This document shows, piece by piece, positions 1 to 57,765 of a stretch of 64,000 nt of DNA. The stretch's first letter is position 1, and every line of letters starts with the position of its first letter. Origin of the DNA: Malania oleifera (taxonomy: Eukaryota; Streptophyta; Magnoliopsida; Santalales; Ximeniaceae); contig NC_080423.1 in assembly GCF_029873635.1 (NCBI RefSeq), forward strand, positions 94,583,191 through 94,647,190, in the 5' to 3' direction. Below the pieces are notes generated by a model. It saw only the letters and a program-made list of their open reading frames with translations. It did no database searches and was not told where the DNA came from. The position numbers and the translations under genes are program-made.

Positions 1-1760
1 CTCCTCAGCTCACCTAACCGAACTAGAGCCAAACTGGTACACCTTATAAGACGACATTTTCCTTTTCAAGTCACGCCTGGAATACAAAGATATGAATTTT
101 TGTGTACAAATATGATTGTTTTTACAAAAGCAGAGATGTACAAATTGAAAAATAATGTACTCTCATATGATATGAAATATGTTCAGTAGAGTAATAGTAT
201 TTTTCTCAATAATATATTGCACTATTTAAAAAAGATGTGTATGATAAAAGTTTCAAAAATTTAACTCCAATAAATATTTCTCCAAAAAGTTTTCAATAAA
301 AGTGTAAGAGAACCTAGGGTTTTGCTTTCAAGTGGTTTTTGCCCAAATAATAGTATATGATCTTTGATGAAATATGAAATATGAGAATATATGTTTTTTC
401 AAAGATCTTGAAATCCCAAGTGTTTTCTTCAAAAATAATATTAAAAAATGTTGTTCAAGAAAGTTAGGGTTTTGGCTCAAAAGGATTTTTGCAAACACAC
501 ACAAATGAGCCTTTGGATCTTACAATAGATGCGCAAAAAGATCTACAAATATGAAGTTTCCCCAAAAGTATTGATAATGTGGGAGGAACTATATGCTTAC
601 TTTCAAAAATGATTTTCAAAATAAAGAATAAGTGAGAGTATGTGCTTTAGGATAAAATGATAAATGATCAAATAAATGATTCTTTAACAACCCTCAAATG
701 CAATAAATTTGCAAGTGAAAGGAAGTAAAAGAAAAATCAAAGCTCTCTTTCAAAATGATTTTTCAAAGGAATAAGAAAGAGAGTAAGAATTTCTTGCTTG
801 AAAGTGTAAGAATGAGAGTAAAAAATTTGAGAGAATTTTTTTGCTGATCTCATTACTAATTATGCTTATGAATAGGCTATATATAGATTTTTCAAAATTT
901 TGGATCGTTAGGGACACAGAGGGAATTTTCAAATTTGTTTAATTAAAAATTAATCTTGATTAGCGCTGAAAATTTGCCCAAACCCGAGAGGGTCGATTGA
1001 CTAATGATTTCGTCGGTCGACTTACCTAAGCATATTTTCAAAAAGTCAATGTGGTTCGGTCGACTGGGGAGATAGTTGGCCTGCTGGCCATAGGCGATTT
1101 TTCAACCCTTAGTAGGTTCGGTCAACTGGCTTTAAGAGCCGATCGATCGAGTAAACAATGTTGGTTGACTAAGGCTTTTTGAACAAAATTGGTCGGTCGT
1201 TCAGGCTTAGAAACTAAGCCATTTACAAGGGCTAGTCGACTGGGCTTCTCTCGTGTTAAAATGGTCAGTCGGCTGAGGCTTTAAAAAATAGACTAAGATG
1301 AAAGGTCGGTCAACTGAGGTGTTTTATACATGAGGAGGTCGATCGACCGAGGTCAGTTAAAATCAAAGGTTATAGCCTTATTTTGACCCAAAAGTATTTT
1401 AAAAACCTTTGTGAGTTTTTAGCCTTTCAGAAAAAGTTTTTCAATGAAAGGTCAGGTCCCCTAAGGTCTGTCTATAGTCATTTGAGTTTTTAATCAAATC
1501 ATGCAAGTCATGCATTATTACAAACATTTCTAAACTAAATGCAATTACAAATGAAATAACAAAGGTCTTCTTCTTCTTTGCTTTTCTAATTTCTTCATGG
1601 AATATGCCAAGTTATATATGCTTTAAGACTTATCTTGGCTTTAATTTTTCTGTCCCTTATGTGTGTTCTGAATTACAAACCTATTCATATGCTAAGTACA
1701 CACATAAGATATTTGTGTTTTGTTAGCTTCAAAACAGGGATTAGATTAAAAAAGTCAACA
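1..1760 (-). mobile_element. Family B LTR (copia-type), cut by window edge
   Basis: This is a long terminal repeat on the minus strand. Its inner end at 1751-1760 is the reverse complement of a TGTTGAC start, and just beyond it lies a purine-rich tract (1761-1775, minus strand) of the kind that primes plus-strand synthesis before a 3' LTR. The body matches the LTRs at 16173-18111, 42793-47397 and 55763-57765 in order: the GTCGAC-rich stretch (about 985-1365), a TATA region near 880, and the tract around 300-340. By comparison with the 16173 copy, roughly 490 bases lie outside the window. It is an old fossil, non-coding here. Confidence 0.75.
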
Positions 1761-4076: not shown

Positions 4077-6484
4077 TGTAACGACCTGAAATTTCCATCC
4101 ATTTTTTTTCTTTTCTATATTAATACAAGATTTCTAATACCTTGCATGAGCATAGTTGCTGACATCATCACGACCTAAAGTGGGACCGTGGTATCTTGTG
4201 CATTTCATATAACACCTAAGCAACAAAAGAACATACATATCCAACATATTCCAAAATACAATACCAGAGTACTATATACCTAGCTGCACACATATACACA
4301 TATACATAACATTTCCCAAAACATTGTGGGCTCCACAGACCATCCCAAAACTCGCCCCAAAAACTACACCGACTCTACACCAACTCTACCTCTGAGCCGG
4401 CCCTGCTCGCCTCTTTGGATTACCTGAAATGTTTAATAATTTTGGAGTGAGACACCTCTCAATAAGGAGAAATATGTTATCACCAGTGTGTGACATATGA
4501 GTTAGTTGGCAACATATCATTTAATTAATACTGTAGACGATATACATCAAGAAAACATTTGTATAATAATACATGCTTATATCATATAGAATATGAAAAT
4601 TTCTGAGTTATCTATTCAAAAGTACTTCTATCTATAATACGTAATCTCTGCTTTCTGTGTGTACTATACATAACTATATATCTGTAAACTTCCCCCTAGA
4701 TGGCTATATGTAATGACTTACCCCCTCATAACTGGATTGTGCGGCTCGAAGGCGGGGCTAAACACTAGTTGGACTTCTAGTGCTAGCCTAACTGTATGCA
4801 TATCTGGATGCCTATAGCACAAAAGGCCCGCTCCACCTAGTCCGGACGCCAAAGAGCTCACAACTCTACTTGAGGGCACAATCGACTATACCATACTCTA
4901 TTTAAGACGTATGGTTGCACTGTCTACACTGTATCGCAATGGTATTGTACTCTATAAACTGCTATATTCCATCAGGGTCTAATACTGTATAATAATATTT
5001 CTATATAAATCTAATTGTTTTACCATAATTCTGTATTTTTGTATAACCATGATTTTGTATCAACTGTATGGCCATGACGCTATAATAACTGTATATCTGT
5101 ATATTCTGTAATACTGTAACTATAATTCTATATTCTGTATGTCATGACTCTATATTCTGTACAATTTGTATTTCTGTATATCAAGGTTCTATATTTTGTA
5201 AATCATGATTTTATAAAATTCTGTATAATCATGGTTCTATATTTTGTATATCATGGTAATAAAACACTGTATCATCAACTTTGTAAAATACTGTACAATC
5301 TTGTTCTGAAATATACTACATAATCATAATTCTGTAAAATACTGTATAAACATGATTATGTAAAATACTGTATATCATATAAACTATATTCCTATATAAT
5401 TCTGTATAGTCGTAGTTCTATATATAAAACTGTACAAGTTATATTTTATAACTCTCTAGGCTGTATAATCATGCTTATGTAAAACTGTATAACATATTCT
5501 ATAATATTCCAGTATTTCTCATGCCACACAATTCAATAAAACTCTATAAATATGTTCTATAATATAATTTCCATGCTCTAATCAAATACTATATTATACT
5601 GATAAAATGTCTAATAAGGCTGGCATAACATGTATTCCCCTTACCTGGCTATCTAGCTTTAAATACTACTCATAATTTCACGCATGCGACGTTCATAATT
5701 TTCAACTCCCTGAAACAAAATCCATATAATTCCCAGTTACACAACTGAATTTACCATAATAATTATCACATTCATATTTTCCCCAACTCCACATATCCAG
5801 CATTTCTAAACTATAATTTACTTGAACTCCTGGAAATATACCCGCTAGAGTCCTTAACCTATATCTGCAGGGTTCCAAAAATATCCTAATCCTAAAAACA
5901 TAATACCCCAGTTTTACTCCACAAAACATCAGTATATTCCCATACAATACAAAATCTAAACTCAGATAAGTTTAGTAATACTGAAAATACCCAAATAATC
6001 AACTTACCTTAGTTTTGGGATGGTGCCCAAGTAGGCCTAACCAACAATCTACTCCAACAGACTTGAAAAGAATCTTCCAAGAAGTAGCGTGGCGGCTTCT
6101 AATCGTCGAATGATGAAGAACGAAGCTGGAATCGTAGAGAGAAAGAGGAGGAGACAAATTTTGGAGAGATAGTGGAAATTTGCATGAAATTCTCACCAGA
6201 AAACCGAGTTAGGCCTATTTATAAAATGCGGATTCGTCGACGAGACACGTCACCTCGTTGACGAGTCCATGAAGGGAGTTCGTTGACGAACTTCAGGCTC
6301 TACTAAACCCCCTCTTGACAAGTCCTCATCAATGAGACATGTGTCCATGTCGACGAGCCCAAGAAGTATGCTCGTCGATGAGCGCCCTGCGTTCGTCGAC
6401 GAGACCCTGTGAGTTCCTTTTGAAATTTCCTTTTCCTCTCTTTTCTTTTATTATTTAATTACTATAATTCTTCAGGTCTCTACA
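4077..6484 (-). mobile_element. Solo LTR, family A (gypsy-type), with perfect TSD
   Basis: The unit starts TGTAACGACC and ends GGTCTCTACA, and is flanked on both sides by the 5-bp duplication TGAGA (4072-4076 and 6485-6489), so it is a complete solo LTR of 2408 bp. In element orientation (minus strand) it has an array of TCGTCGACGA-type palindromes (6230-6412), a TATA box (6217-6223), a pyrimidine/purine-rich leader, a minisatellite (about 4985-5535) and the family's conserved tract at 4449-4474. It is inserted in the copia-type internal region. The perfect TSD suggests a younger insertion than its host element. Confidence 0.85.
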
Positions 6485-7490: not shown

Positions 7491-9510
7491 TATAACAACC
7501 TGGTACCCGATGTGGGCCCCAGGTACACCTGTCTATAACTCATCCCACACAACACAGCTGAACATAAATGTACAAACTCCAAATACAATACCAGAGTTCT
7601 ACTGTCATCCGATACACATACATATTTCCCCACAAGTCCATAAATACATCCCTCGAAAATACCAAGTATACCCATTTACATAACTATGTCTCACAAAAAC
7701 TTACCCTAAACAAACTCTAATCAGCCCTTCCCTGGAGCACTCTAGGTTTGATTTATGAGATTTCCTGAAATGTTAGAAATTATAGGAGTGAGACACATCT
7801 CAGTAAGATGGAATAGATTATTATTAGTGTGTGGCAACACGAGTTTTGGTATTCCAAAAAATACAAATATTAAATAATTAACTATAACTGATAAAACATG
7901 TAAATTTGTACTCACATTTATGTATATATTTGAAAACTCATATTTCCTTTTTCTAAACATACTATATCAAAATACATAGTTTTCTGCAATAATGAAACCA
8001 TCATATATATATATATACAAAAGGAATTTTCCCTAAATGGACGATCATATATCATAATGTAATAACCTCACATGATCGGGTTGTGCGGCCCAAATGTGAG
8101 ACTTAGTCGTGGCTGGCCTACCACCAGGTTAAGTCAAATTTAACGTGTTTGTAATACGATTTGCTTACCGCAGCCTGGTCTGGACCTAGGGGCGGTCAAC
8201 ATCTCTTCGCAAGCCAAATCGACTTTCGCTACCAACACTCTTTCTGAGTAGTGTAGTTGCACTGACTATCACTATAGCCATGGTACTATGCTCTCAATCT
8301 GAACCAGTCCATCAAGGTTCTACTATCATATAATACATTTCATATAATTTAACTGTAACATAATCTCATTTTCATCATATTATATAAAATCATTCATGTT
8401 CACAATTTATTCTGTGTAAAATCATACCATATCATATCTTGGTACACAACCATATATAATCGGCACACAACCATCTGTAATCGGCGCACAACCATCTGTA
8501 CTCATATCATAATTCCATAATTTTTACAACATTTTCTAAAATCAGTATATACTCATGCCACACCATTTGAGCGATAACTCATAATTTAATAACTACCTGG
8601 AATATATATTATACTGAAAATTGAATGAATCATCATCGATCTTCTAGGATTTAATCAACTAAATATACTCGTTTTCCCAAAAATATATACCTATAATAAT
8701 CATAATTCAAAATCCCCATTTCCATATACCAGAATATCTATATATATATATATATATATATTTTCTGTAATCTCAAATTACAATTTAATCGGTTAAATGT
8801 TTAAAATTCCTGACATAATCTATTCCTCTTACCTTTTCGCTAGAGTGGTGCCTAAGATCCCCAAATAACCAATCTACTCCAATTAGACTGCAAAGAATCG
8901 ATGCCAGGATCTCGAAATGATATTTATTGGTTGATTGGGGCTGAATTCGGGTAGAAAATGAGGAGAGAGAAAGTGGGAGTTCGCAGCCCTAGAGAGAGAG
9001 AGTGAGAGAGGAAAGAATTTTCAAAAGAAAATGAACTAAGATCCTTTATATAGGCTGTTGGCCTTGAGGGAACACGTTGACGGTTTGGTCTTTAACCAAA
9101 TCATTTTACTGCATTTTTACCCTTAACGACCCTCGGTAAATCGAAACCATTGACGATTTTCCTAAGCTTGCTAAAACCATCAACTGTTTGGCCTTTCCAA
9201 GCCATGCTCACACAAAGCCGTTGACATTTTTCCTAAGACTCCTTAAACCGTCGATGGTTTGGTTCTGCACCAAACCAAATTTCTCTTTTTATTGCTATTT
9301 TTATTATTACTATTTTTCGTGTACACAGATGCTTAAGCTGTAACCTCTTGCTAATAAAATAATTTTTTTTGGCCTCTCCAAGCCATGCTCACACAAAGCC
9401 GTTGACAGTTTTCCTAAGACTCCTTAAACCGTCGACGGTTTGGTCCTGCACCAAACCAAATTTCTCTTTTTATTGCTATTTTTATTATTACTATTTTTCG
9501 TGTCTTTACA
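7491..9510 (-). mobile_element. Family A LTR, divergent subfamily
   Basis: Same order of landmarks as the 4077-6484 LTR: TATAACAACC start, the GTGAGACACATCTCAGTAAG tract (7788-7807), the tract near 8085-8110, a CATGCCACACCA tract (8554-8565), and a U3 with palindromes. Here the palindromes are of an AACCGTCGACGGTTT type (about 9063-9265 and 9420-9440) rather than TCGTCGACGA, marking a separate subfamily. The adjoining PBS-like repeats make it a candidate 5' LTR on the minus strand. No clear TSD was found. The U3 end is part of a 181-bp tandem duplication. Confidence 0.65.
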
Positions 9511-9555: not shown

Positions 9556-11382
9556 ACCCCTATTTTAATACCAAACATTAACCTAGACAGCGGAAAGCCA
9601 CATACATAAACACAATCACATAAATTACAGTACCAAAGCGTCTAAATATCCCATAAATTAGACATATATCACTGTTCTCCTCAAAACTATTCCCTACTGA
9701 CGTCAAGGCATGCAAAAAAATACTACTCACCCTTAACAGAATAGACTAACAGCCCCTCTACTTGCGAGCCTGATCCGCTTGCCTAGTTGGTTCACCTGAA
9801 AAATAATTCAACACTGGGGTGAGACGACGTTTAGTAAGACGAAACATGCTATTATTAGTGTGTGGCTACTGAGTTATAATTCTATATAAATAAATATGAT
9901 TTAAAAAATAATATCATAGATAGCTGAAATTGTAAATGTTGGTATAAATAACATATATTAAAACTATATAAATTTACTTATCATAATACTACCACTATTT
10001 CTAGAAATCTACTTTTACTTGTAATATTTGAGAAAATTTCCCTAAATGGCTGTATATCATGATTTAACCCCTCATGACAGGGTTGTACCGCCCGAAGGCG
10101 AGACCTATCCTGGCTAGCCGACCAGGGTAAGTCAACTGAACTCCAACAGTCTAATCAGCCCCCTTAATCCATATCTAATGGAGAGCCTGTCCCAATATGG
10201 GCACGATTGACCTCATACCACTTATTATCTGAGTAAAGTGGTTGTATTCTGAACTGAATATCTGTAGCTACGGTAACGTGCTCTGTTGAATCTGATCCAT
10301 CAAGGTCTGATACTATATAGATAGCTGAGATCTTTAACATACTGTTTTACCATGATTTCTGAAATAACCATAACCCCATAGAATTTATTTGAATCTAAAT
10401 TAACTGACTAAAAATCTGATTTCTATATAATTGAATTGTTATCTGTATAACTGAATATTGGGGCATTATGGTATTGAAAAACTTATTATTCTCATATTAC
10501 TGAAAATATATTTTTCTAAGTATACTATATACTGAAAGTCCTTTATTCTATAAGCATGTAAATATCATGGTATTTCTGTTCATAAACTGTAAACATGGTA
10601 TTCATGGTTTGTATAGATATGGTAATGTACTCTAATCAACTCAAGCCACACTAATAAATATTATTATAATCAGGCTCTGAAAACCGTATACATAATTTGA
10701 ATAATAATTTGATAACAACCTATATTTTGTACCGAAATCATAATGAAGTTTCCTAACATAGCATGTTCCCCTTACCTGACTACTAGAAAGCCCCTACTGA
10801 ATATCGGTCCTACACCCGTAGGGTTTCCTACTCAACTCCTTGAAAACAACATTCACCAGAACAAAACATCATTATTTCTCTGACTACTTCATTTCCTACA
10901 ATTGCTGGAAAGCTTAATTTTGAATAAAAGACCTTACCCTGAACCTGGGGAGAAATTCAACTCGATCCCACCGACGATTCGCCCCTGTAAACTTGGAAAG
11001 AACTTTGTCAGGAGCGTTGTGGTGGCCTCAAATCATCGATCCGGTGATTGATAGGGTCAAAATCGAAGAGAGATGGAGGAGAGATCGTAGAGAGAGAAGA
11101 GAGAGAGTTTCTGTTGAAAATCCTGTGGAAAAATCCGAGGTTTACACTATTTATAATGCGACCTTCGTCGACAAGCCACGTCATCTTGTCGACGAGGTAC
11201 AGAAGGAGGTTCGTCGACGAATACCATCTCCTCGTTGATGAAATTTAGAACTCGAAAAAACAGTCACTCGGTATTTTCTCGTCGACGAAATGCTTCCTCA
11301 TCGATGAGGTCCTCATGTACCCTTGTCAATGAATCCCTTGTATTCGTCAATGAGGCCCTAGGAAAATTCTTGGGTTATTACA
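9524..11382 (-). mobile_element. Family A LTR (about 1.86 kb)
   Basis: Starts TATAACCTCC and ends TTATTACA. It carries the family landmarks: a GGGGTGAGACGACG tract (9816-9829), a tract near 10070-10110, a repeat-rich slot (about 10300-10640), a TATA box (11149-11155, minus strand) and a palindrome array (11162-11382). No matching TSD was seen, in keeping with the rearranged left edge. Confidence 0.65.
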
Positions 11383-12440: not shown

Positions 12441-14164
12441 TGGGGCACTCGCCTTTCTCAGCAAGCCCTCGGGTGAAGAGTATACCCCTCCCCAAATACA
12501 TGTAATAATACAATATATAATACATTTCTTTCTTTACTTTATATATGTTATCTCTGTATTATTCATTACATTCATATTCATATTCCATATTCTTATAATC
12601 TGTTTCCATATCATTCTTGTCCACATCATTTCCATTTGCCAATTTCCATATCCATTGTTCTTATATCTGCCATTTCCCATATTATCCATTGTTAAAATAA
12701 CAATTATGCGTTTAGAACTCTCTATACCAATTATATCATAGTCATGCTTCCGCCCCATGACGGGTTGTGTGGCCCGAAGGCTAGACTTAACTTTGGTCGA
12801 CCCACTAGAGCTAAATCAACCACATTTTATTGTCTGTAGGTCTGATTGGCTGCTCCCACACTAGTCTAGACTCTAGGGGGACACTACCCTTCCCAGCACA
12901 ATCAACCATCCCATCTCCACACTCTATCTAAGACATGTGGGTGCACTAGCTCCGCCAAATATATTCGCAACAGTACTGTGCCCATTTTCCAGTTTACCAG
13001 AGTTCTCAAACCATACATTATCATTTAACAATTCCAAACACATGCAAAATAAACCATATCACATTTTGATTCTCAATACATTTCCATTATTTCCTGTATC
13101 TCATACATATACCATACTTTAGCACAAAAATTTCCTTTTTCTTATGCCACACAATTTAATAACATATATTCATACGTTTACTGAAAAATAAACAAACCCA
13201 TTATCATTGTTAATATACTGAAAATATACATTTAATTTCTTACACATTTATCTAGAAAATTTGCTATTTTATCTTTCCTTTTTCGTAAATAATAACTAGT
13301 AACACAACCCTAGGCTTAGAAATTTACATTTTAAACGGTTGGTTTTTCAAAACTCACATGAAAATCATATACATATATATACAAATTTTCTATTATTACC
13401 GGTTAATTTCACAAAAATCCTGATTTAATATATTCCTTTTACCTACTTTCTTGAACTACGCCAAAAAGAACCTCAAAATGATGCCTGCGACGCTCACCCG
13501 AACCCTGAATCAAAAACCTTAGTTTTATCAGATAAACCCCAAATAACCTACTATTTCAGCATTTCCTCAACCTATAAACCTTAAATAAACATTTAAACCT
13601 CCAAAACTAAGAATCCTAACCCTTACCTCAACTTTGGAGCTATGCATGGAAAGCCCAATTTAGAAATTTGCTCCATCAGATGTGTAGAGAATCTCCCCTA
13701 AAACACCGTAGTGGTTTCCGTTTGTTGATTAGGGTTGAATTCGGGCCGGATTTGAAGAGAGAAGGCAGAGGAAATGTCTATAGAGAGAAAAAAATTGAGA
13801 AAATGAGTTTCTTCACGAAGAAGCAACTTTGGATCCTTTTATACACGATGTTGCCACGTGGCTTCGTCGATGAGAAGACAGGATTCGTCGACGAGCCACT
13901 GAAAGGACTCCATCGACGATAGGATGCGTTCGTCAACGAAACTTAAAATCTGAAATTCACTCACTCGGGATCTCTTCGTCAACGAGGGACTGAACTTCGT
14001 CGACGATTTCTAGAAGAACACTCGTCAACAAAGACAGAAGATTCGTCGACGAGGTCTACTGTTTTTTATCTTTTAAATCTTCCCTTTTTCCTTTTTATAT
14101 ACTTATCAATTCTATTTATTATCTTTCCTAATTTTTAATAATTATAATTTTTCAAGTCTTTACA
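12441..14164 (-). mobile_element. Family A LTR, 3' part replaced or lost
   Basis: From 12441 on, the sequence matches family A: a CTCAGCAAGCCCTC tract (12457-12470) that pairs with 46513-46526 on the other strand, the tract near 12757-12786, a TATGCCACACAATTT tract (13142-13156), a palindrome array (13861-14065) and the end CAAGTCTTTACA. The expected lower-coordinate end of the LTR is missing and is replaced by the unclassified block. Confidence 0.6.
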
Positions 14165-16451: not shown

Positions 16452-18111
16452 CACAAGATTTGTTATCGAGGTTCAGCCAAACCAACCTATGTCCCCGCCT
16501 TGAGCATATCCCCCAAGGGTTACACTCTCCCTGCTCACTTGAACGAGGGGAGTAGAAGCTGTTACAACCTATCTTTTCGGGGCGAGGTAAACCCCAACTC
16601 AATTACTAGACTGAGCCCAACTAGTCCCCCTTTTAAGGCAGAGACACTCTAGTTCAATTTTTGGGCTGAACCGAACAGGTCTCATTTATAGGGTTGAGAC
16701 TTTCCAGTTCAATTTATGGGTTGAACCCAACCAACACATGAAAACATTTTTGTACATATTAATATGATTTTAAATACAAGCATGGATGTACACATTAAAA
16801 GTTCAAATACATGCACTCTCTTATGATATGAGTTATGCTCAGTAGAGTAAGGGTGCTATCAAATAACATTTTCAATCTTTGAAAGATAATGTATATGATA
16901 AAATGCTCAAAGATCTGAACCTTATAAAATATTTCTCCATAAATATTTTCAATGAGAAGTAGGAGAACCTAGGGTTTTGGGTTTTCAAATAATTTTTGCA
17001 ACATAAAACTTTTTCAATGAAAGCATGGATGCAAAAATAAATGCCCTAAAATAAAAGTGTTCTCTTTCAAAATATTTTCCAAAGAATAATAAAGAGAGTT
17101 GGAGAGTGTAAAAATTTAACCCCGAAGTGAATTTTGAAATAAGAGTGTGTGTGGGGGAACTTTGATTAAGTGAAAAATTTGAGAGAAAATATTTGTTAAT
17201 TAAAGTTGCTAATCTAAGCAAATTGAGGGGTATTTATAGTTTTTTTTTTTTTTTTTGAAAAATATGATCGTTAGGGACATATTGGGGATTTTTGAAATTA
17301 TTTAATTAGAATTTAACCCGAATTACCGCAGTTAATTTTAGTGAACCCGAGAGGTTTGGTCGCCCGGTCCTTAGGGTCGGTCGCCCGAACAGAAACAAAG
17401 CCTGTATTGGGTTTTGGTGACTGTGGGTGAGTCCGGTTGGCTGAAGTCAATGCAATTTCCAAACCTTCATAGGTTTGGGCACTCAGTTCATTGGTTCGGC
17501 TGGTCGTGCCTCACAATTCAGTCGCTCGGAATGATTTTGAACTAAAAGTTCGGGTGGCCGAGGACAATGGAAAAGTCAATGAGCAGGGTTTGGTCAACTG
17601 TGGACGATACATTCATTTTTGTTTAGTTACCCAAGGCTTAGTCAATATTTTGACTTTTTGGCCAACAGAGTGACTAAGACTTAGTCAATATTTTGACTTT
17701 TTGGCCAACAAAGTGTTCGATCAATCGAGGGCTATAACACATATATCGGTCGGTCACCCAAGACTTTTAATTAAGCCTAAAATCCCAACGTCGGTCAACC
17801 AAAGTTTTCCCTAAGGTTTGTCTATGGCCTATCTGAGCATTAAATCATATCATGCAGAATGTATGCATTTATTACTGACCAAAATTTAAAAACCTAAATG
17901 CATATACAAATTAAATCAAATATGTTTTTTTCTTCGCTCTTCTAACATCATGAAATACGCCTGAATGTATAGTCTTTACGTTCTTCAAGGCTTCTATTGT
18001 CAGTCTCTTTATGTGTGTGTTGAATTATAACTTGTTCAATCACTAAATACACATATAAAAAACATGAGCTTTGTCAGCGTCAAAATAAGGATCGGACTAA
18101 AAAATTCAACA
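16173..18111 (-). mobile_element. Solo LTR, family B, 1939 bp
   Basis: Starts TGTTGGAATTGGTGTGATCC and ends, in reverse complement, with a TGTTGAATTT start, giving TGTTG/CAACA ends. Flanks AAATT (16168-16172) and AGATT (18112-18116) form a 5-bp TSD with one mismatch. Inside are a GA microsatellite (16420-16448), a run of CTGGGGTTTACC-type repeats on the minus strand (16480-16740) and a stretch rich in GGTCG(C/A)CC-type motifs (17350-17800). No internal region is present, so this is a solo LTR. Confidence 0.8.
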
Positions 18112-22154: not shown

Positions 22155-22515
22155 GCGCAGTGAAAATGAGAAATATCCCGATTTTTAGCTATTTATAGGG
22201 TCAGATTCGTTGACGAGCCACGTCACTTCGTCGACGAATTCTTAGTAATTTCATTGACGAAGCCCTGTATTTGTCGATGAAATTCAGAGAAGCCTGAACC
22301 GTCTCTCGGTATTTTCTTGTCGACGAAGCTCTGTGTTCGTCGACAAAATTCTGAAGACTTTCGTCGACGAAACCCTATGTTCGTAGACAAAATTTTGAAG
22401 ACCTTCGTCAACGAAACCCTGTGTTCGTCGATGAAATCTACGGCCTCCTTCTGTTTTTATATCTATTTTCCCTCCCTTTTATTATTAAAATGCTATTATT
22501 CTTCGGGTCACTACA
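20519..22515 (-). mobile_element. Solo LTR, family A, 1997 bp, perfect TSD
   Basis: Starts TGTAACGACCTG and ends GGGTCACTACA. The perfect 5-bp TSD GAAAG lies at 20514-20518 and 22516-22520. Element landmarks are the tract at 20849-20870, the tract near 21145-21180, a minisatellite of about 26-bp units (21425-21690), a TATA box (22191-22197, minus strand), a long GA microsatellite (22110-22155) and a palindrome array (22203-22435). It is one of the best preserved copies of the family in the window. Confidence 0.88.
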
Positions 22516-42792: not shown

Positions 42793-45700
42793 TGTTGGCT
42801 TTTTGAGTCCGATTTTATTTTGATGCTGACAAAACACATGTATCTTATGTGTGTGCCTAGTGTTTTGAACATGTTTACAATTCAGAATGCACATACAGAA
42901 GAGCAACTGATGTTTTCCATGAAAGAAAAAAGAGTAAAGAAGAAGACATTTGTTTTGTAATTGTTTTGCATTTAATTTTTTATCTTTGGTCTGTAATAAT
43001 GCATGCATTTGCATGATATGTTTGAATGATCCGAACGACCGTAGATAGACCCTAGGGACTAGCACATTTCACCAAAAACCTTTTTTTTAAAAAAGACTAA
43101 AATCATACGAAGATTTTGGAATTGCTTTAGGGTCAAAATCGGGGCCAAAACAAAGCCTTCGACTGACGCCAGATTTTTTGGGAAAAATATTCATTGTTAA
43201 TGCCCTCGGTCGACTGAACCAAACTGGTAATAATTAGCTTGGTTGATCGAACCACTGTTTACCCAGAAGTCAAAGTTTGACTTGCCCGGTCGATCGAACC
43301 GGTAGCAATATAAAAGTCACGATCGACCGAATGGTCAAAAGTCAACATTTGACTTCGCTCAGTCGACCATTCCAGTTTGAACACACCACCCTTAGTCGAC
43401 CGAACCAACACGTGTCTGACACCCGACTACTTGGTCGACCCTTGTAGTTTATTTTTCCCATGGTCAACCGAACCCAGAGGAATGGTCAACCGAACCCAGA
43501 GGAATGGTCAACCGAACCTTGCCTTGGTTGACCGAACCTATGAAGGGTTCAAAATCGCCCTGATATGGTCGACCGAACTTGCAGTTCAAATTATCCACGG
43601 TCGACTGAACTCAATGATATGGTCAACCGAACTTCTCGGGTTAGAAATTTTTTAAGGACTAAAACGTCATTAATTTTTTAATTAATTTTTTTCAAAATAC
43701 CGAGCATGTCCAACGGTCATAATTTTTGAAAAATCTATAAATACCCCCTCCATAACTCAGATTAACAACTTTGATTAACTCCAAATTCTCTCTAAACCCT
43801 TTGTTAATCAAAGTTCCTCAAAACCAATTTTTATTGATAAAATCATTTCTTTGGGGCATATTTTTATCAAATCTCTTCTACTCTCTTTTCATTTATTTAT
43901 TTCAAAATTTATTTTGAAGGAGAGCATATTTATTTTGGGCATTTACATTTACTCTCATTTGTATCTTCATTTATTAAAATTATTTTTGATAGTAGCCTTA
44001 ATATTTCTTCCGGTTATTTTTCTTGATAAACATTTTTGAGAGAAATTATTTATTGCACAAATATTTTTCTTGAACTTAAACTCCAGATTCTCCAAATACT
44101 TTTATTTGCAAAAATATTTGTTGGAAAACATAATAATCATTTTATATCCATATATTTTGTTTGTGCAAATATTATTTGATAAACACCCTTTCTCTATGGA
44201 GCATAACTCATATCGTTAGAGAGTGCATTTTGAGCTTAAACGTGTACATCTTTGCTTGTATTTTTTTGGAAGCATTTCATATGTACGAAAATTTTTTTTA
44301 TTGTACCGATTGGATTCAGCCTGGAATTGAATTGGGGAGTTTCAGTCCCGTAAGTGAAACTGGTTTGACTCAACCTGAAAATTGAACTGGGGAGTCTCAG
44401 CCCCGTAAGTGAGACAAGTTGGGCTCAGTCTTATAATTAAGTTGGGGTTTACCTCACCCCATAAGGAGAGAACGACTTCTACTCCGCATGTTTAAGTGAG
44501 CAGATTTAGAGGAATCCTTGGGGGGTATGCCCAAGGCAGGGACGTAGGTTGGTTTGGCAATCTCGATAACAAATATTGTGTCGTTCTCTCTCTCTCTCTC
44601 ATTTAATTACTGTACTTTAACTTTCGCACGTGTATGCTTGTTTATTCATAGTTCTAATTATTTGTATGTACACATTTATTTAAATGAGATATGCTGCACG
44701 TGTATGTTCACACTTATAGCTTATACATTTTACATACACGACCATAATTAAAATGAGATATTATATGTGGTGAATCGGTGAAACTTTAAATTAGCCAAAA
44801 AGTTTTAAAACCCAATTCACCTCTATAATAACCCGAAAAAAAAAATTTTGTTAAAAAAAAATTAATAAATTAAAATTATTAATAAATTAACTAGTTAAAT
44901 ATTATTAAATTAATGTATTAAATAAACAAGTAGGAAAAAAAAGGACTAATTATTAATTAATTAATTATTATTGAACAAATTAATTAAATAAACAAATAAA
45001 ATAAATAGTGTGGAAAAAAAATACTAAAATAAAGATATGTATATTAAATTATATATGTACATATATATATATATATATAATATTAAAATAATAATAGTGG
45101 ATATGATTGCATTGCAATCTGAATCAGATTTCAAAATTGAAATCTGATCTTTCTGGACTTAATTCTCTCTCAGCCTCTGCGTGCCGCCACCTCGCCTCTC
45201 CGTCTTCTCTCCCTCTCTCCTTATTTCTTGATGAATATTCGCCTGATCGGGAAACGGAAGGTGCTGTTGGGTTATTAGCTCCGCCACCGACATTTCTACT
45301 GGAGCAGATTTTTCATAGGAACGACTTAGGCATTGCTCCTGGGGAAAAGTAATTTTTTCCCAATTTCTTAATTTTTGGTAAAATCTACTGTTGAAGCGAC
45401 GATTAGGTACCACCACCGGGTCCTAATCGTCGTTGTCGTCATTTTGGCATAGGTAATTTTTTAATTAGAGTTTTCTAGGCCTTACTCCAAAGCGAGAGTG
45501 GAATTTAGAAAATTTGGCAATTTGATTAAATTTAAGGATATATTTATTTATTTAGGAATTATGACCCTAAGAAATATTTAAATAATATTTTATTTAGAAA
45601 TAATTTATTGAAGTTAGGAATTTTTGATTCAGGGTCCGGGTGTGCGTCGCAGGTATTTTTCGGAGTCCCTGTTGGCGTAATTCAAGAAACCAGGTAAAGG

Positions 45701-47402: not shown

Positions 47403-48650
47403 CACGTATAAAATTTCTAGAGAAAAAACCAAGAGAGCTTGAGGTCTTCCAGCTGAACATGGAGCAATTGGAAGCCTTTGAGAATAGGCTGAAACAAATT
47501 GAGGGCATAATGCCATTTCTTATCCCAAAAGGGAGGGCTAATAGAGCTTGAGGGCTCCCTATGGGAATTAACTGATGATTTCTACGTGCTTGCAGAGAAT
47601 GTCAAAGAAACTATTAGCACCATGAAAGAGGATTTGAAGGAGGTGGGTAATCTTCGAAACATGACGGATCAATTTCAGAATGACTTACAAGAGGTAAGTT
47701 CTAAGCTAAGTGCAGTGGCTCAGATGTCACGAAGGCCCCTAACCGATACTTGTGGGGGAACCCAAATTAAAGTGCCAGAACCTAAATGTTTTGGAGGTGA
47801 TCAAGATGCAAAAGAGTTAGATAACTTCGTCTTTGATCTAGAACATTACTTTAAGTGCTTAAGAATTGACATAGAGGAGGACCGAGTAAATATTGCAACA
47901 GTATATCTTACTAAGGATGCTAAATTATTGGGGAGAACCAAATGTGAAGACATGCTAAACAACTGGTGTATCATCAATACTTGGGGAGAGTTGAAACTTG
48001 CCTTGAAAACAATTTTACCTAGGGAATACAAAGTATATGGCGCTTTACAAGGTGTTTGAATTACATCAAACAGACTTGATAGGGAAGTATGTATGGGAGT
48101 TTTAGGCCCTAATGCTCGACATCAAGGATTTGGCAGATTCTGACAGAGTCTTCCATTTTCTTCGAGGACTTAAATCATGGCCAAAGAATGAGCTGCGAAG
48201 ACAAGGAATTCGTGACCTTCCCTCAACTCTCGCAGCAACTGAAAGATTGGAGGATTTCTCAAGTCGGACCCTTACAACAAGAGGACGGTTAAATGACTAC
48301 TTAAATGGTTCTCAGAAAAGGAAATACCCAACACCTGACGATCATGAACAAATATCTTCTCGGGTGTATAAATATATAGGTAGGGAGAGCAACAAGGGAT
48401 CTAATAGATTTTTAAGCGATAGGGAACCCTGATTGATGAGAGAGTGGAATGACAAAGATGCAAGGAGTGGGATGCATCGACTGCCACTTGCTTGTTTTCT
48501 ATGCATGGGACCCCATCTTGTAGCAGAATGCCCTGAGCAAAAGGCCTTGAATGCCTTGAAAAAAATCCAAAAGGGAACAGAAATCTTGAACATCGATTTG
48601 GGAGAAAAGAAGAGTATGGTGGGTGCCCTAAGGCTTTTGGGGAGTCCTTA
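47403..48650 (+). mobile_element. Gypsy-type gag, second part, with zinc knuckle
   Basis: Resumes the gag sequence after the nested insertion. Recognisable parts are a Retrotrans_gag-like domain (about 47765-48040: FGGDQDAKELDNFVFDLEHY and VYLTKDAKLL), the LRRQGIRDLPSTLAATERL region (48190-48260) and a C-x2-C-x3-H-x4-C zinc knuckle (CFLCMGPHLVAEC, near 48490-48540). The copy is broken in a few places, and no protease or pol follows. Confidence 0.8.
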
Positions 48651-49815: not shown

Positions 49816-51987
49816 TGTAACGACCTACTTATTTAACCAATTTTTTTTATAATAAAAACCGATATAATAAACCTAACAAATCATAATCAACCAACCTGAA
49901 CCCGTGGTACTAGGGATACATCAGAATTACAACACGGAAGCCTAAGTAGTGAGAAACATAAAATCATATACATCTCATTTTATCATTCAACGCAATACCA
50001 GAGTTTACTACATTCATTGTATATATTGCAAAATAATCAAAACTAGTCCTAGGGTTGTCACCCAAAAATCCATCTGACCCTAGCAAAAGACTTACCCTTC
50101 AGACAGGGTAAAATGACTGAACTCTAACGCTGTGGAGCTTTATCCAATCTCCTATCTGGGGCTCCTGAAATGTTTGTATAATTTGGGGTGAGACACCTCT
50201 CAGTAAGGGAAAATAAACTAATACCATTGTGTGGCAACATGAGTATTTCCATGTTATACATATAACCATACATAAACATATACAACGAAACTGTCTGTAT
50301 CATATTTGGGAAAAACATATATAATCATAGCATGACAGAACATACTGGATTTCCGTAAGCATAATTCTTCTTATATAATAATAATATAAAAAACAACCCT
50401 AGAAGGCTAGCTGGCTGGTGTCATGTCTTACCCCCACATGACTGGGTTGTGTGGCGCGAAGGCGGAACTTGACAATGGCTGGTCGACCACTGCCAAGTCA
50501 AAAGCAAAGTCTATAAGTATGATGGGTCTGCCAAACCTGGTCCGTATACCAGGGGCGCTAACACTTCAATAAACCACATCAACTATCCATCCTCACGCTG
50601 CCTCGTACGACAACGATAACACTACCATCATAATGATCATGATCACATAGCTATGGTATCGTGCTCGTGTAAGCTTAAACCAAGCCAACCAGGTTCTGAT
50701 AACATATAACATATTTCAAATTGTGATACATTGCTATTCCATAATAATAATAATTGTCAAATCAATATTATCATATCACATTTCATAGCATAATATGAAA
50801 ATCTTCGGCCCTTATGCCGGCATTTTGTATTTTATTAATCACGGTTCGTACGCCGTATCACATATCACATAAAAGGCTCGGCCTGTACACCGACATATCA
50901 TATATAAGGCTCAGCCTGTACGCCAACATATCATGTAAAAGGCTTGGCCCGTACGCTGGCATATCATGTGAGAACATCTTCGGCCCGTACACCGGTATAT
51001 CATATAAAATTCTCGGTCCGTACGCCAGTATATTATATAAAAACTCTCGACTCATACGCCGGTATATCATATAAAAACTCTCGGCCCGTACGCCGGTATA
51101 TTATATAAAACTTTGTATCATTTAACATTTTCCTAGAAAATAGTAATTCATAATAAATTCTACTCATGCCACACAAAATGAGTATTACACAATTTAGAAC
51201 ATATCATTGTTTACAGCAGTATTTCCCAAACATAATGCTAATATATATTTATTTTCCTGAAATTAAATGCTGTAAGATTATACATATATTTTCATAAAAA
51301 CAATTAGTTTAGTTTATTCCCTTACTTGATTCCTAAAGAGCCCCTAAAGTATATTAGTCCTGCACTCGCAGGGTTCCTCGTTCAACACCCTGAAATCAAC
51401 ATCTCCTAGAACAAAAAATCAGTATTTCTTTGACCACTACATTTTCTACAACTGCAGGAAAGTCAAATACTAAATAGAAAGCCTTACCTCAAATCAGGGA
51501 TGGAATTCAAGCTGGCCCCACCAACGATCCACTCCAGTAGATTTGAAGAGAACTCTTCCAGGAGTGTCGTGGTGGTCTCAGACCGTCGAACATGCAAGAA
51601 TCCAGCCCAGAAACTTAGAGAGAAGGATTCGAAACCGAAGAGGAGTGAGAGAGGGAAGTTTTTTTTTGTGATTTTCTGCTGTAAAACCCGAGTTTAGGCT
51701 ATTAATACACCGACCTTCGTCAACGAGTCACATCACCTTGTTGACAAGGTCATGAAGGAAGTTTGTCGACGAACGTTTATTTCTCATCCACGAAATTCAG
51801 ATATGGGAAAATAGTTTCTCGATATTTTCTCGTCGACGAGACACATCCCCGTCGATGAGTCCCTCATGTGTATTCGTCGACGAACTCCTTGTATTCATCG
51901 ACGATACCCTATTTAAGTATTTCAAATACAATTTCCTTTTCTCCTTCTTCCATTATTTAAATACCATAATTTTCTTAGGCCACTACA
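49816..51987 (-). mobile_element. Solo LTR, family A, 2172 bp
   Basis: Starts TGTAACGACCTA and ends TAGGCCACTACA. TSD TATAT lies at 49811-49815 and 51988-51992; it is perfect, but in low-complexity sequence. Landmarks are GGGGTGAGACACCTCTCAG (50184-50202), the tract at 50445-50465, a minisatellite of about nine units of roughly 31 bp (50800-51115) with a GGCCCGTACGCCGG core, CATGCCACAC (51165-51174) and a palindrome array (51712-51905). Confidence 0.82.
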
Positions 51988-52438: not shown

Positions 52439-52657
52439 TGTAAAGACCCGAAAAATTAAAATGATTAAATAATTAGAAAATAATAATAATAATAAATAAA
52501 ATAATAAATGAACATATAAAAGAAATAGTATGAAAAAAAAATAAAAATATATATGAAATAAAATGAAATTAGACTAATTATTAATTAGTTAATTAATTGA
52601 ATTAATAAATTAATTAACGTTATTTAAATAAATTAATTAAGTAAATTATATAATGGG

Positions 52658-52688
<31 letters not shown>

Positions 52689-55587
52689 ATTTAAGATAGA
52701 ATGAAGTGAATTGGATTTCAATTTGAAATCCAATTCAATGTCCTGATCCACGGCCCCCCTTCTCTGCAATTGTTCCTGCCTCCTGCGCAGCACGCTCACC
52801 TCCATCTTCCGTCTCTTTTTTTCTCTCAATTTTTTGATGAATTTGCAGCGGATCGGGAAACGGAAGGTATCGTTGGATTAATAGTTCCGCTGCCGACATT
52901 TCTGCTTGAGCAGATTGGTCGTGGGAACGACTTAGGCACTGCTCCTTAGAAAGATAATTTTTTCCTATTTTCTCAATTTTGCTTTAAATCTACTATTAAA
53001 TCGGCGAACGGATACCACCATGTGGTCCTAATCGTAGTCGTCGTCATTTTGACGTAGGTAATTTTTCAATTGGGATTTTTTAGGCCCTACTCCAAAGCGA
53101 GAGTGGGATTTGAGAAATTTGACAAATTAGTTAAATTTGCGGGTATAATTGTAAATTAAAAATTATGACCCTAGAAAATATTTAAATAGTATGTTATTTA
53201 GGAATAATTTAAGTGGAATTAGGGTTTTTGATTCAAAATTTGGGTGAGCGCCACATGTATTTTTCCGGAGACCCTGTCGGTGTAGTTCAAGAAACAAGAT
53301 AAGGGGAAAAATATATATTAAATCAGAAGTTTTATGAATTAAATGAAAAATAAATTGTGTTATATGTACGTGTAATTTTTCAGTATGAGTAAAATGTCAA
53401 TCATTTTAATTATATTTTTTTTTTCGAGTTTAGGGCTGTTTATTGTATATGTATATGTGAAAATGAACTAATGAAAGTGGAAACATATTTTCAGAGTATT
53501 TATGTAAGAAATAAAAAGTATTTTTAGTATATAAACATTAAATGTTGGTTGACTTATTTTACAGGCAGTGTATGAGTTTTATTACTAAATTGTGTGGCAT
53601 GAGTAAAATAGAATTTTATATGGAATTATGTTATATATACGAGGTGCAAGATATACAGAAAATGAAATGAGCATGAAAATGATATATGAAATATGCTGCA
53701 TGTGAGTGTTAATACAATCATGGAAACAACCACGGTTGAAAAGATGCCGACCACGGCTGAAAGGATGCTGAAGCTAACCAATCACGGCTGAAAAGATGCC
53801 GACCACGGCTGAAAGGATGCCGAAACTAATCAATCACGGCTAAAAAGATGCCGACCATGGCTGAAAGGATGCCGAAACTAACCAACCACGGCTGGAAAGA
53901 TGCCAAGTATTTATGAATTAAAATAAAAATGAGTATGAAATGAAAATAAAATGAAAAGGGAAATGAATGGAATGGAAATAAAATATGAAATGTGAACAGA
54001 TGTGTATGATTGAATAATGATAAAAAGAATGATGTATTATGATATTAAAAGTATTTATGTATGTAGAACATGTTACGTTTAGGCGGGGCGCACTCTTCGC
54101 CTGAGGGCTTGCTGAGTAAGGCGAGTGCACTAGTAGCTTCAGATGTGGCAGTAGCTGCATAACGCACTAGGGCAGAGGGAACCTACTTGTATGAGCGGGT
54201 TGGATTCCCTATCCTTAGGGCCTTTGCCGGTAAACTATTATTGAACTGTGTGGGTACGAGATTAATCTACCACTTGAGGGCTTACTGAGTAAAGTGAGTG
54301 CTCTGATATGTTTTAATTGTGACCTTAGGGTTACCTAAGTATCAGAGCAGATGGGTGCTACTTGTATGGGCGGGTAATCACCCCTATCCTTGGATAATCT
54401 CGTGGGTTAAATATTTGCATGTGATTGTTTAGGTTCAGAAAATGATTTCAATGTTATATGATGATTTGCAAATGAAATAAAAATGATATCTATTTATCTC
54501 ATGTTGGTCACATGCTATTTTAATATGTATTGTTTCTTCCTTTACTGAGATGTGTCTCACCCAAATATGAACTAATCTTTTTCAGGACTTCCACGAGATC
54601 GAGCTTAGAGAGCTCGAGCTGTTATAGCACCTTTAAGGAAAAGGGTATAATTTTGATGTTTTGGGAATATAAATATTTTATGTATTATGTTTAAGTCTTC
54701 TGAGTGATAGATGGTTGTGAAACATACTGAAATTTGGGGATTTTGTTTTTTTATATATGTATTTATGTGAATACAAGTGGATGTATGTTGTATGTTAGAA
54801 TGTAGATGGATGTAGAAAACTCTAATGTTGTATTTGTTGAAAGATTTTAGTTATGTTTTAGAATGTGTATTATTAAGTAAATGAATTGATTAGTAGCACT
54901 CTGGGCGGTGAATTTGCAGCGGATCGGGAAACGGAAGGTGTCGTTGGATTCCTGGTTTCACTGCCAACATTTCTACTGGAGCAGATTGGTCGTAGGAATG
55001 ACTTAGGCACTGCTCCTGGGAAAAGGTAGTTTTTCCCTATTTTCTCAATTTTGCTTTAAATCTACTGTTAAATCGGCGAACGGGTACAATCACGTGGTCC
55101 TAATTGTTGTCATTGTCATTTTAACGTAGGTAATTTTTCAATTGGGATTTTTTAGGCCCTACTCAAAAGTGAGAGTGGGTTTTGAAAAATCTGGCAAATT
55201 AGTTAAATTTGCGGGTATAATTGTAAATTAACAATTATGATCCTAGAAAATATTTAAATAGTATGTTATTAATGTGATACCCCATAGATGAAAGACTTAA
55301 AAGATTAGTGTTACTACCCTTATCAATAAGGTGCACCTTTCTTTTCGTGAGCCTTCTCATAAGAACTCCATAGTTAAGCGTGCTTGGCTTTGAGCAATAT
55401 TGGGATAGGTGACCTCCTGGGAAGTTTTCTCACGAAGTGTGTGAGTGAGGACAAAACACACTTAAAAGGACATGTATTGATTTGTGGGGCCAGTCATTAG
55501 TTTGATAAGGCCCGCCCCCTGTTGTCTGGTCCAGGTGGAGGAGGAGAGACGCAGTGCTCCCTAGCAGACCCAGGTTGGGGCGTTACA
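52439..55587 (+). mobile_element. Mosaic LTR insertion: family A LTR plus Cassandra-like end
   Basis: A perfect 5-bp TSD ATCTG (52434-52438 and 55588-55592) bounds the whole 3149-bp unit. The related copy on the other strand near 1950-1960 has the uninterrupted ATATCTGAGC empty site. Inside lie a near-complete family A LTR (52439 to about 54908), a second copy of part of it (54909-55270 repeats 52838-53198) and a Cassandra-like LTR (55273-55587). A minisatellite with an ACCACGGCTGAAAGGATGCC core lies at 53720-53910 and a TA microsatellite at 52659-52684. Confidence 0.8.
55273..55587 (+). mobile_element. Cassandra-like (TRIM) LTR with 5S rRNA-derived segment
   Basis: Starts TGTGATACCCC and ends GGGGCGTTACA, 315 bp. 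Bases about 55360-55425 match the 3' half of plant 5S rRNA: AGAACTCCATAGTTAAGCGT, then GCTTGG, GGGATAGGTGACCTCCTGGG and AAG. This covers the A-box, intermediate element and C-box of the internal Pol III promoter. Carrying 5S sequence in the LTR is the defining trait of the Cassandra family. It is a single LTR here. Confidence 0.88.
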
Positions 55588-55762
55588 ATCTGAGTTTGTG
55601 CTATAATGTTAAAATTAAATGCATGATCATTTGTAGTCTCTTCCTTTGTGTATATGCTTGAGTTTTACTATTTATATTTTTTATGCATATTATTAGGGGG
55701 AGCCTTTTCTTGTTGTACCCATTTTATTCTTATGTGTTTGTAATCATCAAAAAGGGGGAGAT
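55588..55762 (+). mobile_element. Copia-type 3' region end with polypurine tract
   Basis: Continues the internal region after the mosaic insertion. It includes TTAGGGGGAGCC (55694-55705) and, just before the LTR, AAAAAGGGGGAGAT (55749-55762), a polypurine tract. It matches the reverse complement of 1761-1955. Confidence 0.7.
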
Positions 55763-57765
55763 TATTGGTTTTTTTAATTTGGTTTCTGTTTTGATGTTGA
55801 CAAACATAAGTGTCTCATGTGTGTGCCTAATACTTTGAATAGGTTCATAATTCGGAATGTAGACACAAAAGAGGAAGATAGAAGCCAGAAAGTACTTAAA
55901 CTCATATCATCCGGGCATGTTCCATGAAGACTTGAAGAGTAAAGGAAAAGAAGATATTTGATTTAATTTGTATATGCATTTTAGTTCTTATATTTTGGTC
56001 TGTAATTTTGCATACATCCTGCATGATATGACTTAATACTCAGAACGACCGCAGATTGACCTTAGGACCCAAAACCTTTCATAAAAAATCTCATAACTTA
56101 AAAACCACACTCATACATATAAGAGGGATTTTTTTGAAGGTCAAATTTAGGGGCAAAATTGGAAATATACTTGCCTCGGTCGATCGACCATTGCAAGGTC
56201 AAAAGACCTCAATCGACAGACACTCGACCGTCTAACCGGCTTTGAACGAATCTTCACTAGTCGATCGATGCGTGTATGCTTGCTTTCCAATGCCCATGGC
56301 CGACCAACGCCTTCAGTTCAAAATCCTTATGGTTGACCGAACCATATGAACAGCCGACCGGCCAAGTGCCTTGGTCGACCGAACCTATAAAGGGCTCTGG
56401 ATCGCCTTTTTTTAGGTTGACTGGCTAGCTCCTTGGTCAATCGAGCCAAGCCTGAAAATATTAATCTTGCCTTGGATGGTCTACTGACCCATGCTTAGGT
56501 TGATCGTACCTCTCGGGTTGCCGAGTTTTTACCACACCAATTAGGGTTAAGTTTTTAATTAAACAAATTCAAAATGATGAGCGTGTCCCCAAATAGTCAT
56601 AATTTTCCAAACTCTATAAATACCACCTTATAACCTCATATTAGTAACTTTGATTAACTCTAAAATTCTCTCTAAACTTTTGTTAATCAAAGTTCCCCCA
56701 AATCAATTTTTATAGCTAAAATTATTCTTTTGGGGCAAAATCCTTTTAATAAATCTCTCTCAACTATTTTTTACTTGTTTATTTCAAAATCATTTTTGAA
56801 GAGAGTATTTTATTTTGGGCATTTCATTTGTATTCACATGCCTATACTCTCACTTAATATTTATCTTCTGAAAATCATTTTTGAGAGTATTGCTTGGATT
56901 TATCCCGATTAATTCATGATAAATATTATTGGGAGAAATTATTTATAGCACAAATATTTTCTTGAACTTAAACTCCAGATTCTCCAAATACTCTTATTTA
57001 CAAAAATATTTGTTGGAGAACATAATAATCATTTTATATCCATATATTTTACTTGTGCATGAATCATTTGATAAGCACCCTTACTCTACTGAGTATAATG
57101 CATATCATAATAGAGTGCATACATTTGAGTTTTAATGTGTACATCTTTATTTGTATTTAGAAGCATTATTTTGTACAAAAATATCTTTAATGTATCGGTT
57201 GAGTTCATCCCATTAATTGAACTAAGGAGTCTCTGCCTTGTAAGGGAGACCGGTTGGGTTCAGCTCGTAATTGAACTGGGGAGTCTCCGCCCCGTAAGGG
57301 AAACCAATTCGGCTCAACCTGATAATTGAGTTAGGATTTTTTTCACTTCGTAAGGAGAGGTTTGTAAGGTTGGGGTCAGCCCTCTAATCTGACCTGGGGT
57401 TTACCTTGCCCCGTAAGGAAAGGTTGTAAGTGGCGTCGCTCTGCCCAGTTAAAGTGAGCACTAAGTAGAATCTTTGGGGGGTATGTCCAAGGAGGGGATG
57501 TAGACTGGTTTGGCCGAACCTCAATAACAAATTTTATGTTACCCTCTCTCTATCTCATTTATATTTCTGCACTTAAATTTCTGCATGTGTACGCTTTCAT
57601 TTATCGTTATTATTATTATTAGCATGCACACCTCTATTTTAAATAAGATATGTTTCACGTGCATGCCTGCATTTATCTTTTTATTAATTTACATACACAT
57701 TTAACCAAAATGTTCTTAAAACCCAATTCACCCGCCCTCTTCTTGGGATCACACCAATTCCAACA
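55763..57765 (+). mobile_element. Family B 3' LTR (copia-type)
   Basis: Begins right after the polypurine tract and ends CCAATTCCAACA, about 2.0 kb. Landmarks match the other family B copies: GTGTCTCATGTGTGTGCC (55809-55826), a U3 stretch rich in GGTCGACCGAAC-like motifs (56170-56515), TATAAATA (56615-56622), three GGGGAGTCTC/CCCCGTAAGG-type repeats (57220-57420) and TTCACCC..TTGGGATCACACC near the end. The position after a PPT makes it a 3' LTR rather than a solo LTR; the corresponding 5' part of the element is not recognised. Confidence 0.78.

Follow-up and report, generated by a model that had tools for sequence, protein, structure and literature searches.

Within a 64,000-nucleotide stretch of the Malania oleifera genome (NCBI RefSeq assembly GCF_029873635.1, contig NC_080423.1, positions 94,583,191 to 94,647,190; hereafter the window), LTRs of more than one family carry repeated boxes built around GTCGAC upstream of their TATA boxes. 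This raises the question of whether unrelated retrotransposons have acquired the same promoter architecture independently and, if so, what the boxes do.

GTCGAC is concentrated in ten LTR arrays

The window has a GC content of 35.2% and a CpG o/e of 0.55, and its content is host genes among nested LTR-retrotransposon debris. A protein kinase gene (Pfam Pkinase, E 2.7e-51) is present, as is a PP1-like phosphatase frame that was identified by eye. Separately, an RNase H-like frame at 18422-19042 on the minus strand (Pfam RVT_3) probably belongs to a non-LTR element, and three copies of primer-binding-site words resembling TGGTATCAGAGC (2, 0 and 1 mismatches) lie 47 bp apart at 7382-7487, also on the minus strand.

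GTCGAC occurs 33 times in the window against 2.6 expected from a first-order model, ranks first in over-representation among the 64 palindromic hexamers, and was found 2.5 times on average and at most 9 times in 100 dinucleotide shuffles of the window. The clustering of this hexamer in LTR arrays, proposed in a preliminary description of the locus, is real: 28 of the 33 occurrences fall inside ten arrays that occupy 3,040 of the 64,000 bp (Table 1), and the CpG o/e of these arrays is 0.83-1.99. When each array was scanned with the box of its own family, with mononucleotide shuffles as the null, A1-A5 gave 6, 9, 9, 10 and 7 sites, C1 gave 7 and B1-B4 gave 13, 8, 8 and 7, the shuffle means for all ten being 0.07-0.72. 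Exact GTCGAC, counted against dinucleotide shuffles of each array's own sequence, is not in excess in C1, B2 and B3 (p 0.06, 0.08 and 1.0).

Table 1. Box arrays, the B1 TATA box and array-free U3 regions, in window coordinates
Feature	Coordinates	Strand	Contents and landmarks
A1 array	6225..6405	-	6 scanned YTCGTCGACGAR boxes and a decayed in-register box at 6330; TATA 6216-6223; LTR start 6484
A2 array	11160..11360	-	8 in-register boxes; TATA 11148-11155; LTR start 11382
A3 array	13860..14055	-	8 boxes; TATAAAAG from 13843; LTR start 14164
A4 array	22203..22437	-	10 boxes, distal block partly duplicated; TATA 22190-22197; LTR start 22515
A5 array	51713..51907	-	8 boxes; TATTAATA from 51707; LTR start 51987
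B1 array	43145..43640	+	13 scanned and 1 by-eye GGTCGACCGAACC-type boxes; LTR start 42793
B1 TATA box	43736..43743	+	TATAAATA
B2 array	56160..56515	+	8 scanned and 1 by-eye sites; TATA 56615; LTR from ~55763
B3 decayed array	17350..17805	-	8 sites, 0 intact GTCGAC; TATA 17231-17238
B4 array	985..1352	-	7 scanned sites and 1 by-eye out-of-register site; TATA-like box near 885
C1 array	9065..9445	-	7 AACCGTCGACGGTT-type boxes (at most 4 mismatches); LTR start 9510
D1 U3	44824..45200	+	putative A/C LTR lineage, no array; hexamers at most 1 mismatch from GTCGAC: 0
D2 U3	52439..52780	+	putative A/C LTR lineage, no array; hexamers at most 1 mismatch from GTCGAC: 0

Box and spacing conservation in family A

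All five arrays that had been named for family A are present (shuffle means 0.57-0.72, maxima 3-5), and each LTR has 7-10 TTCGTCGACGAA boxes. The LTRs of A and C lie on the minus strand, and the statement that their arrays precede the TATA box holds only when they are read in that direction. The further statement that arrays stand just before the TATA box is accurate for family A, where the nearest box centre is 15, 14, 25, 14 and 14 bp away in A1-A5, but not for B1, where 110 bp separate the last box from the TATA box at 43736.

A box is found at every register position of A2-A5, and in A1 the fourth box is missing. The spacing in A2, A3 and A5 is 21, 25, 20-21, 46-47, 19-21, 25 and 21 bp; in A4 some intervals are 1-2 bp shorter and there are two additional boxes, and A1, when its decayed box at 6330 is counted, gives 21, 25, 46, 21, 25 and 21 bp. 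The five mismatches of box 6330 are all CpG transitions or at box edges. Identity and arm covariation were measured on 40 boxes, being the 41 scan matches without 11401, which precedes the LTR start, and 14012, which is off register, and with 51742 (five mismatches, in register), and the position and CpG counts on 41, being these 40 and the decayed 6330. Across the 41 boxes, 161 of the 164 non-CpG inner positions (2, 5, 8 and 11) agree with the consensus, and 79 of 123 CpGs are intact, with 42 of the 44 changed ones reading TG or CA, as in deamination. The edges of the box are variable, the first base being C, T or A and the last A or G. Between copies, boxes are 80% identical in the proximal and 77% in the distal part of the array (the rearranged distal block of A4 left out), against 47.5% (154 of 324 positions) for spacers of equal length.

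Given that boxes and spacing are conserved over the spacers, what is kept resembles a protein site with a spacer fixed in length and free in sequence, and the pattern fits selected candidate binding sites that were later methylated. The boxes would have been kept while the family was active, and the type of mutation suggests that methylation and decay followed in silent copies. It counts against giving this decay much weight that loss of CpG is equally expected of any methylated CpG-rich repeat. It could also be argued that mutational turnover alone built the arrays, unequal exchange and slippage having amplified U3 units in which the box is unselected, and true local duplications do occur, as a 22-bp triplicate in B1 (43462-43520), in the distal block of A4 and in the U3 of C1, where 9187-9370 and 9368-9555 are 94.7% identical. 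Such an origin is improbable, and for A already disfavoured, since duplication would copy the spacers too, yet these have diverged to 47.5% identity while 161 of the 164 non-CpG positions of the boxes remain intact and the spacing is preserved.

Among other candidates for family A, a model with a single helical phase was rejected, as the spacing alternates between 21 and 25 bp, and so were the auxin-type TGTCTC, as-1 TGACG and G-box motifs, each at most in marginal excess and in single copies. No TTGACY W-boxes are found in the A and C arrays.

Family B and the Sirevirus RM

Family B is represented by four copies, B1-B4, of which only the first had been recognised before; the arrays of B2, B3 and B4 are likewise placed, the distance from last box to TATA box being 110, 112, 122 and 112 bp in B1-B4. 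When the four are aligned, their flanks align and their arrays do so only poorly. The earlier count of about 14 motifs in 43145-43640 proved correct, with 13 sites at most four mismatches from GGTCGACCGAACC (in 200 mononucleotide shuffles the mean was 0.44 and the maximum 3) and one more by eye at 43438; exact GTCGAC occurs six times in this copy. A logo of 39 sites, made up of 36 scan matches and the by-eye sites 43438, 56420 and 1239 (the last out of register), gives the unit (C/T)GGTCGACCGAACC, which starts with TGG in 19 of the 39 and with CGG in 16.

Because the scan consensus itself included the right flank, the asymmetry of the unit was rechecked at sites picked by the 8-bp core GGTCGACC alone. 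There, the right-hand GAACC agrees at 58/80 positions in B1, 35/60 in B2, 21/45 in B3 and 30/65 in B4, and its left mirror at 29/80, 19/60, 18/45 and 23/65 respectively. The one-sidedness of the flank is clear in the first two copies and weak in the other two. The preliminary description was right to place arrays around GTCGAC upstream of the TATA box in two LTR lineages (A/C and B), but not in calling the whole B unit a palindrome, B1 being the clearest case against it; the middle of the unit is palindromic. Reverse-strand scans of B1-B4 gave 10, 3, 3 and 2 matches, among which the same palindromes may be counted.

Spacings in family B are often near 20-22, 32-33 and 39-43 bp and tend to fall close to multiples of 10.5 bp (pooled R 0.55, 35 spacings). 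The B copies are related, so a pooled p value is not independent; B1 alone gives p ~0.04, and the period that fits this copy best is 9.1 rather than 10.5.

The B arrays are also rich in W-boxes (TTGACY on either strand), with 27 against ~2.5 in shuffles, or 10, 4, 8 and 5 in B1-B4 against 0.8, 0.4, 0.8 and 0.5. Thirteen of the 27 are inside boxes, where one CpG transition is enough to turn GGTCGACC into GGTTGACC or GGTCAACC. The other 14 are outside boxes, and several of them form inverted pairs, an example being AGTCAAAGTTTGACT at 43268. In B3, where no GTCGAC survives, there are still eight W-boxes, two within boxes and six elsewhere. Given this enrichment in all four arrays, WRKY proteins would be the first candidate factors for family B. 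The DRE (A/G)CCGAC was rejected as a rule for the family, being in excess in B2, B3 and B4 and not in B1. Inverted W-box pairs of the form AGTCAA...TTGACT stand between boxes at 43268-43282 and 43340-43354 in B1 and at 17640-17655 and 17683-17698 in B3.

An array of this kind has been described for the Sireviruses (Ty1/copia, SIRE/Maximus), whose repeated motif (RM) is palindromic, is present in 8-32 copies per element and forms CpG islands upstream of the TATA box (Bousios et al. 2010, PMC2829016). According to that account, a CGG-CCG signature is common to all Sirevirus RMs except that of Tnd-1, the RM of the Vitis Sirevirus is CGGTCGACCG, and the LTR junction is marked by the PPT octamer AGGGGGAG and a flanking inverted repeat; the RM is said not to occur in classic retrotransposons, a term that stands there for the other Ty1/copia elements, and is called Sirevirus-specific within that Ty1/copia comparison (PMC2829016). 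Family B resembles the RM so described in lying upstream of the TATA box, in its many boxes with a palindromic core and in its CpG richness (PMC2829016). The four copies have 14, 9, 8 and 8 sites (three of the 39 by eye), against at least 8 per element, and the CpG o/e of B1-B4 is 1.12, 1.05, 0.83 and 1.17 at 45-50% GC, values that are not formal CpG-island calls. The CGG of the core (C/T)GGTCGACCG is often TGG. The Vitis RM is one base away from the usual B core TGGTCGACCG; the exact 10-mer is absent from the window, and its first place is most often T in B boxes. Family B differs from the RM as described in the one-sided GAACC of B1 and B2 and in the W-boxes of its arrays.

At the junction of B2, the PPT octamer stands at 55753 and is followed by AT and then the LTR, with a second octamer at 55695, and the inverted repeat there matches in 20 of 24 columns, its score of 27 being reached by none of 1,000 shuffles. 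The junction octamer of B4 is decayed, others lying on the minus strand at 1828, 2844, 3001 and 3878, of which only 1828 is close, and the inverted repeat scores 15, which 212 of 1,000 shuffles reached and which is not distinguished from chance. No PPT octamer was found in the flank examined of B1 and B3, and three of the nine in the window are away from B copies (29041, 23583 and 14399 minus). The second of these, at 23583 on the minus strand, forms a Sirevirus-like junction word, AGGGGGAG-AT-TGTTGA. No coding region belonging to a B copy was noticed in the window. Taken as a whole, the features of family B fit the RM array already described in 2010 for Sirevirus LTRs, and the family appears to be of a known kind.

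Relations among families A, B, C and D

The motif of a third subfamily, family C, had been placed at 9063-9265; AACCGTCGACGGTTT is in fact at 9427-9441, and the quoted range has only decayed copies. In the regions after the TATA box, A aligns with C at z 7.3-13.7, and no relation of A/C to B is detectable (z at most 3.0). The view that the families differ everywhere else is supported, after the TATA box, for A/C against B and falls for A against C, which are relatives. The likeness of LTR heads within A, C and D is uneven, reaching z 8.7 for A1-A4 and 8.6 for A3-D2 at best. D heads resemble some A heads, of which A3-D2 is the best and other pairs are weak; C1 heads give only 0.0 to 3.2, and several head pairs of A2, A5 and D1 are near 0. 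A3 shares a stretch further down the LTR with D at 68-69% identity over 502 and 548 columns. Given the low head likeness of C1, the place of C in the lineage rests on the post-TATA block. The most plausible reading of these alignments is a single lineage with three subfamilies, of which A and C have arrays and D, whose U3 is AT-rich, has none. An array-free sister subfamily implies that the array is not required by the lineage.

Directly after the D1 LTR, at 47447-48648 on the plus strand, lies a broken frame that we take to be gag-like; three pieces of it matched no Pfam gag model. D2 is apparently inserted in a purine-rich, PPT-like stretch (52225-55770), possibly the linker of a Sirevirus with B2 as its 3' LTR. 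Broken pieces of a Ty1/copia reverse transcriptase adjoin the A3 LTR at 14317-15554 on the plus strand (Pfam RVT_2, with one piece scoring over the curated cut-off and one under it).

The relatedness of A and C leaves two independent cases of the array, not three. What stands of the proposed convergence is a fixed site upstream of the TATA box, CpG richness and the absence of detectable post-TATA common descent between A/C and B; what does not stand is A and C as unrelated cases. Nor is convergence on the same core statistically firm: with only two independent lineages, and GTCGAC being one of 64 palindromic hexamers, or of 16 with a central CG, a coincidence noticed after the fact would have a chance of ~1 in 64 to 1 in 16. 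The shared core may be chance, and a common host factor for both lineages is possible.

That the related families A and C differ in the flanks around one core is also what would be seen if the boxes were targets of an anti-silencing protein encoded by the element, the motif diverging with the protein of each family. In VANDAL DNA transposons, VANC proteins bind motif arrays, and the pattern described there is one of family-specific short motifs, noncoding tandem repeats and rapid divergence (PMC10398659). This reading is very unlikely indeed. Neither an extra gene nor an internal region of family A was recognised in the window, which is a weak test, and the paper deals with VANDAL elements, "LTR" having 0 occurrences in its main text (PMC10398659).

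Families A and C compared with known LTR systems

Families A and C do not show the Sirevirus signature: the A consensus YTCGTCGACGAR is without CGG, and C boxes have CCG...CGG, the reverse of the Sirevirus order. The LTR heads of A, C and D are likewise not of the Sirevirus kind (z at most 1.6 against the B1 and B4 heads), and family A is unlike the Sireviruses in that its arrays end 14-25 bp from the TATA box. GTCGAC is exact in one of the 13 published Sirevirus RMs, that of Vitis, most others being differently centred (PMC2829016).

The heads TGTAAAGACCCG (D2) and TGTAATAACCC (A2) resemble the U3 att TGTAACACCC of maize and sorghum Del elements (PMC4029996). Against this maize/sorghum consensus the eight A, C and D heads have raw scores, with no null, of 0.5 to 6.5 out of a possible 8.5, and B1 has -3.5. 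Del LTRs, which are Ty3/gypsy, are described as having variable 5' CpG islands, and CpG-rich regions upstream of the TATA box are known in monocot LTR elements; "no CpG island" predominates in the cluster that holds all eudicot Del elements (PMC4029996). The CpG-rich, variable U3 of some groups is a likeness to Del/Tekay, and a difference is that palindromic boxes are not named in the passages on Del CpG islands (PMC4029996). The A/C lineage is possibly Ty3/gypsy and Del/Tekay-like.

Folding of the arrays

In RNA folding against dinucleotide shuffles, the A arrays gave z of -3.2 to -5.9 (5/5), those of B -1.6 to -5.7 (seven segments) and that of C -2.6, where the U3 of D gave -0.3 and -0.5 and three non-array controls -1.0, -1.7 and -2.9. 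Folding of this strength may indicate a structural role, and it raises the possibility that the arrays are kept for self-complementarity, U3 transcripts forming hairpins from which miRNA-like small RNAs arise. Such a case was reportedly argued for maize Sireviruses by Bousios in 2016. The arrays of A, B and C do out-fold their shuffles where the D U3 does not, and in maize the palindrome-rich U3 is described as a small-RNA hotspot (PMC10760457, PMC5311732). Those maize regions are like the present ones in being palindrome-rich, foldable, fast-changing U3 sequence adjoining the promoter, and differ in their motif, CACCGGACNNNGTCCGGTG (PMC10760457, PMC5311732). However, selection for hairpins is unlikely: palindrome arrays of any sort fold well as a by-product, the non-array controls are negative as well, and the units of B1 and B2 are asymmetric. 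Moreover, the six mirrored pairs of the A box show no detectable compensation and are no more complementary than shuffled ones (p 0.26-1.0; 40 boxes), which is weak evidence, as one pair is invariant, one is nearly so and most of the change is CpG decay.

Proposed role and its significance

It is suggested, with a probability of roughly 0.6, that the arrays are cis-regulatory repeats of LTR promoters, bound by one or more host factors when unmethylated, those of B fitting the Sirevirus RM and those of A and C being its analogue in another lineage. The position, repetition, CpG richness and deamination-type decay of the boxes, and in A the conservation of box and spacing over spacers, can be read directly from the DNA. 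From these we infer a sequence of events in which many short CpG-dense boxes with dyad symmetry (complete in families A and C and partial in family B) upstream of the TATA box would, while unmethylated, be bound by one or more host transcription factors; the bound boxes would activate transcription of the LTR, and DNA methylation would silence the array promoter.

The observation itself is real and strong, and half of it is already accounted for in the literature. What is still of interest is A and C: an RM-like array, with constraint at the level of the box that is clear in A, in a lineage whose LTR head is not that of a Sirevirus and which may belong to Ty3/gypsy. Should A and C lie outside Ty1/copia, one promoter architecture would have evolved twice, which would point to a common host constraint, and the conservation of box against spacer would pinpoint the exact bases at which to probe it. 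The array-free D, beside the arrayed A and C with other LTR parts in common, offers a natural experiment. A more far-reaching scenario, in which palindromic CpG arrays of RM type arose again in a Ty3/gypsy-like lineage, one host factor family reads the GTC-GAC dyad in both, methylation is the off-switch and deamination of GGTCGACC to GGTTGACC mints W-boxes that turn silenced copies into stress-responsive enhancers, is held to be quite improbable.

Searches for related arrays

Tnt1 and Retrolyc are reported to resemble the present families in that their regulatory regions have short repeated motifs, which vary from one subfamily to another. In open-licence papers, none of the matches listed dealt, by title or start of abstract, with palindromic box arrays in Ty3/gypsy LTRs, and among the matches listed for the exact motifs none had an LTR subject by its title. 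Scans of IMG/VR for paired boxes returned 40 and 2 loci, of which 41 of the 42 are at 58-75% GC and one, L030, at 40%; no plant LTR was recognised in short stretches of L041, L042 and L030, and the other loci were set aside on GC and motif counts. The contig of L030 has a cluster of four GTCGAC palindromes at 1951-2140, some of them extended (TCGTCGACGA, TTGTCGACAA).
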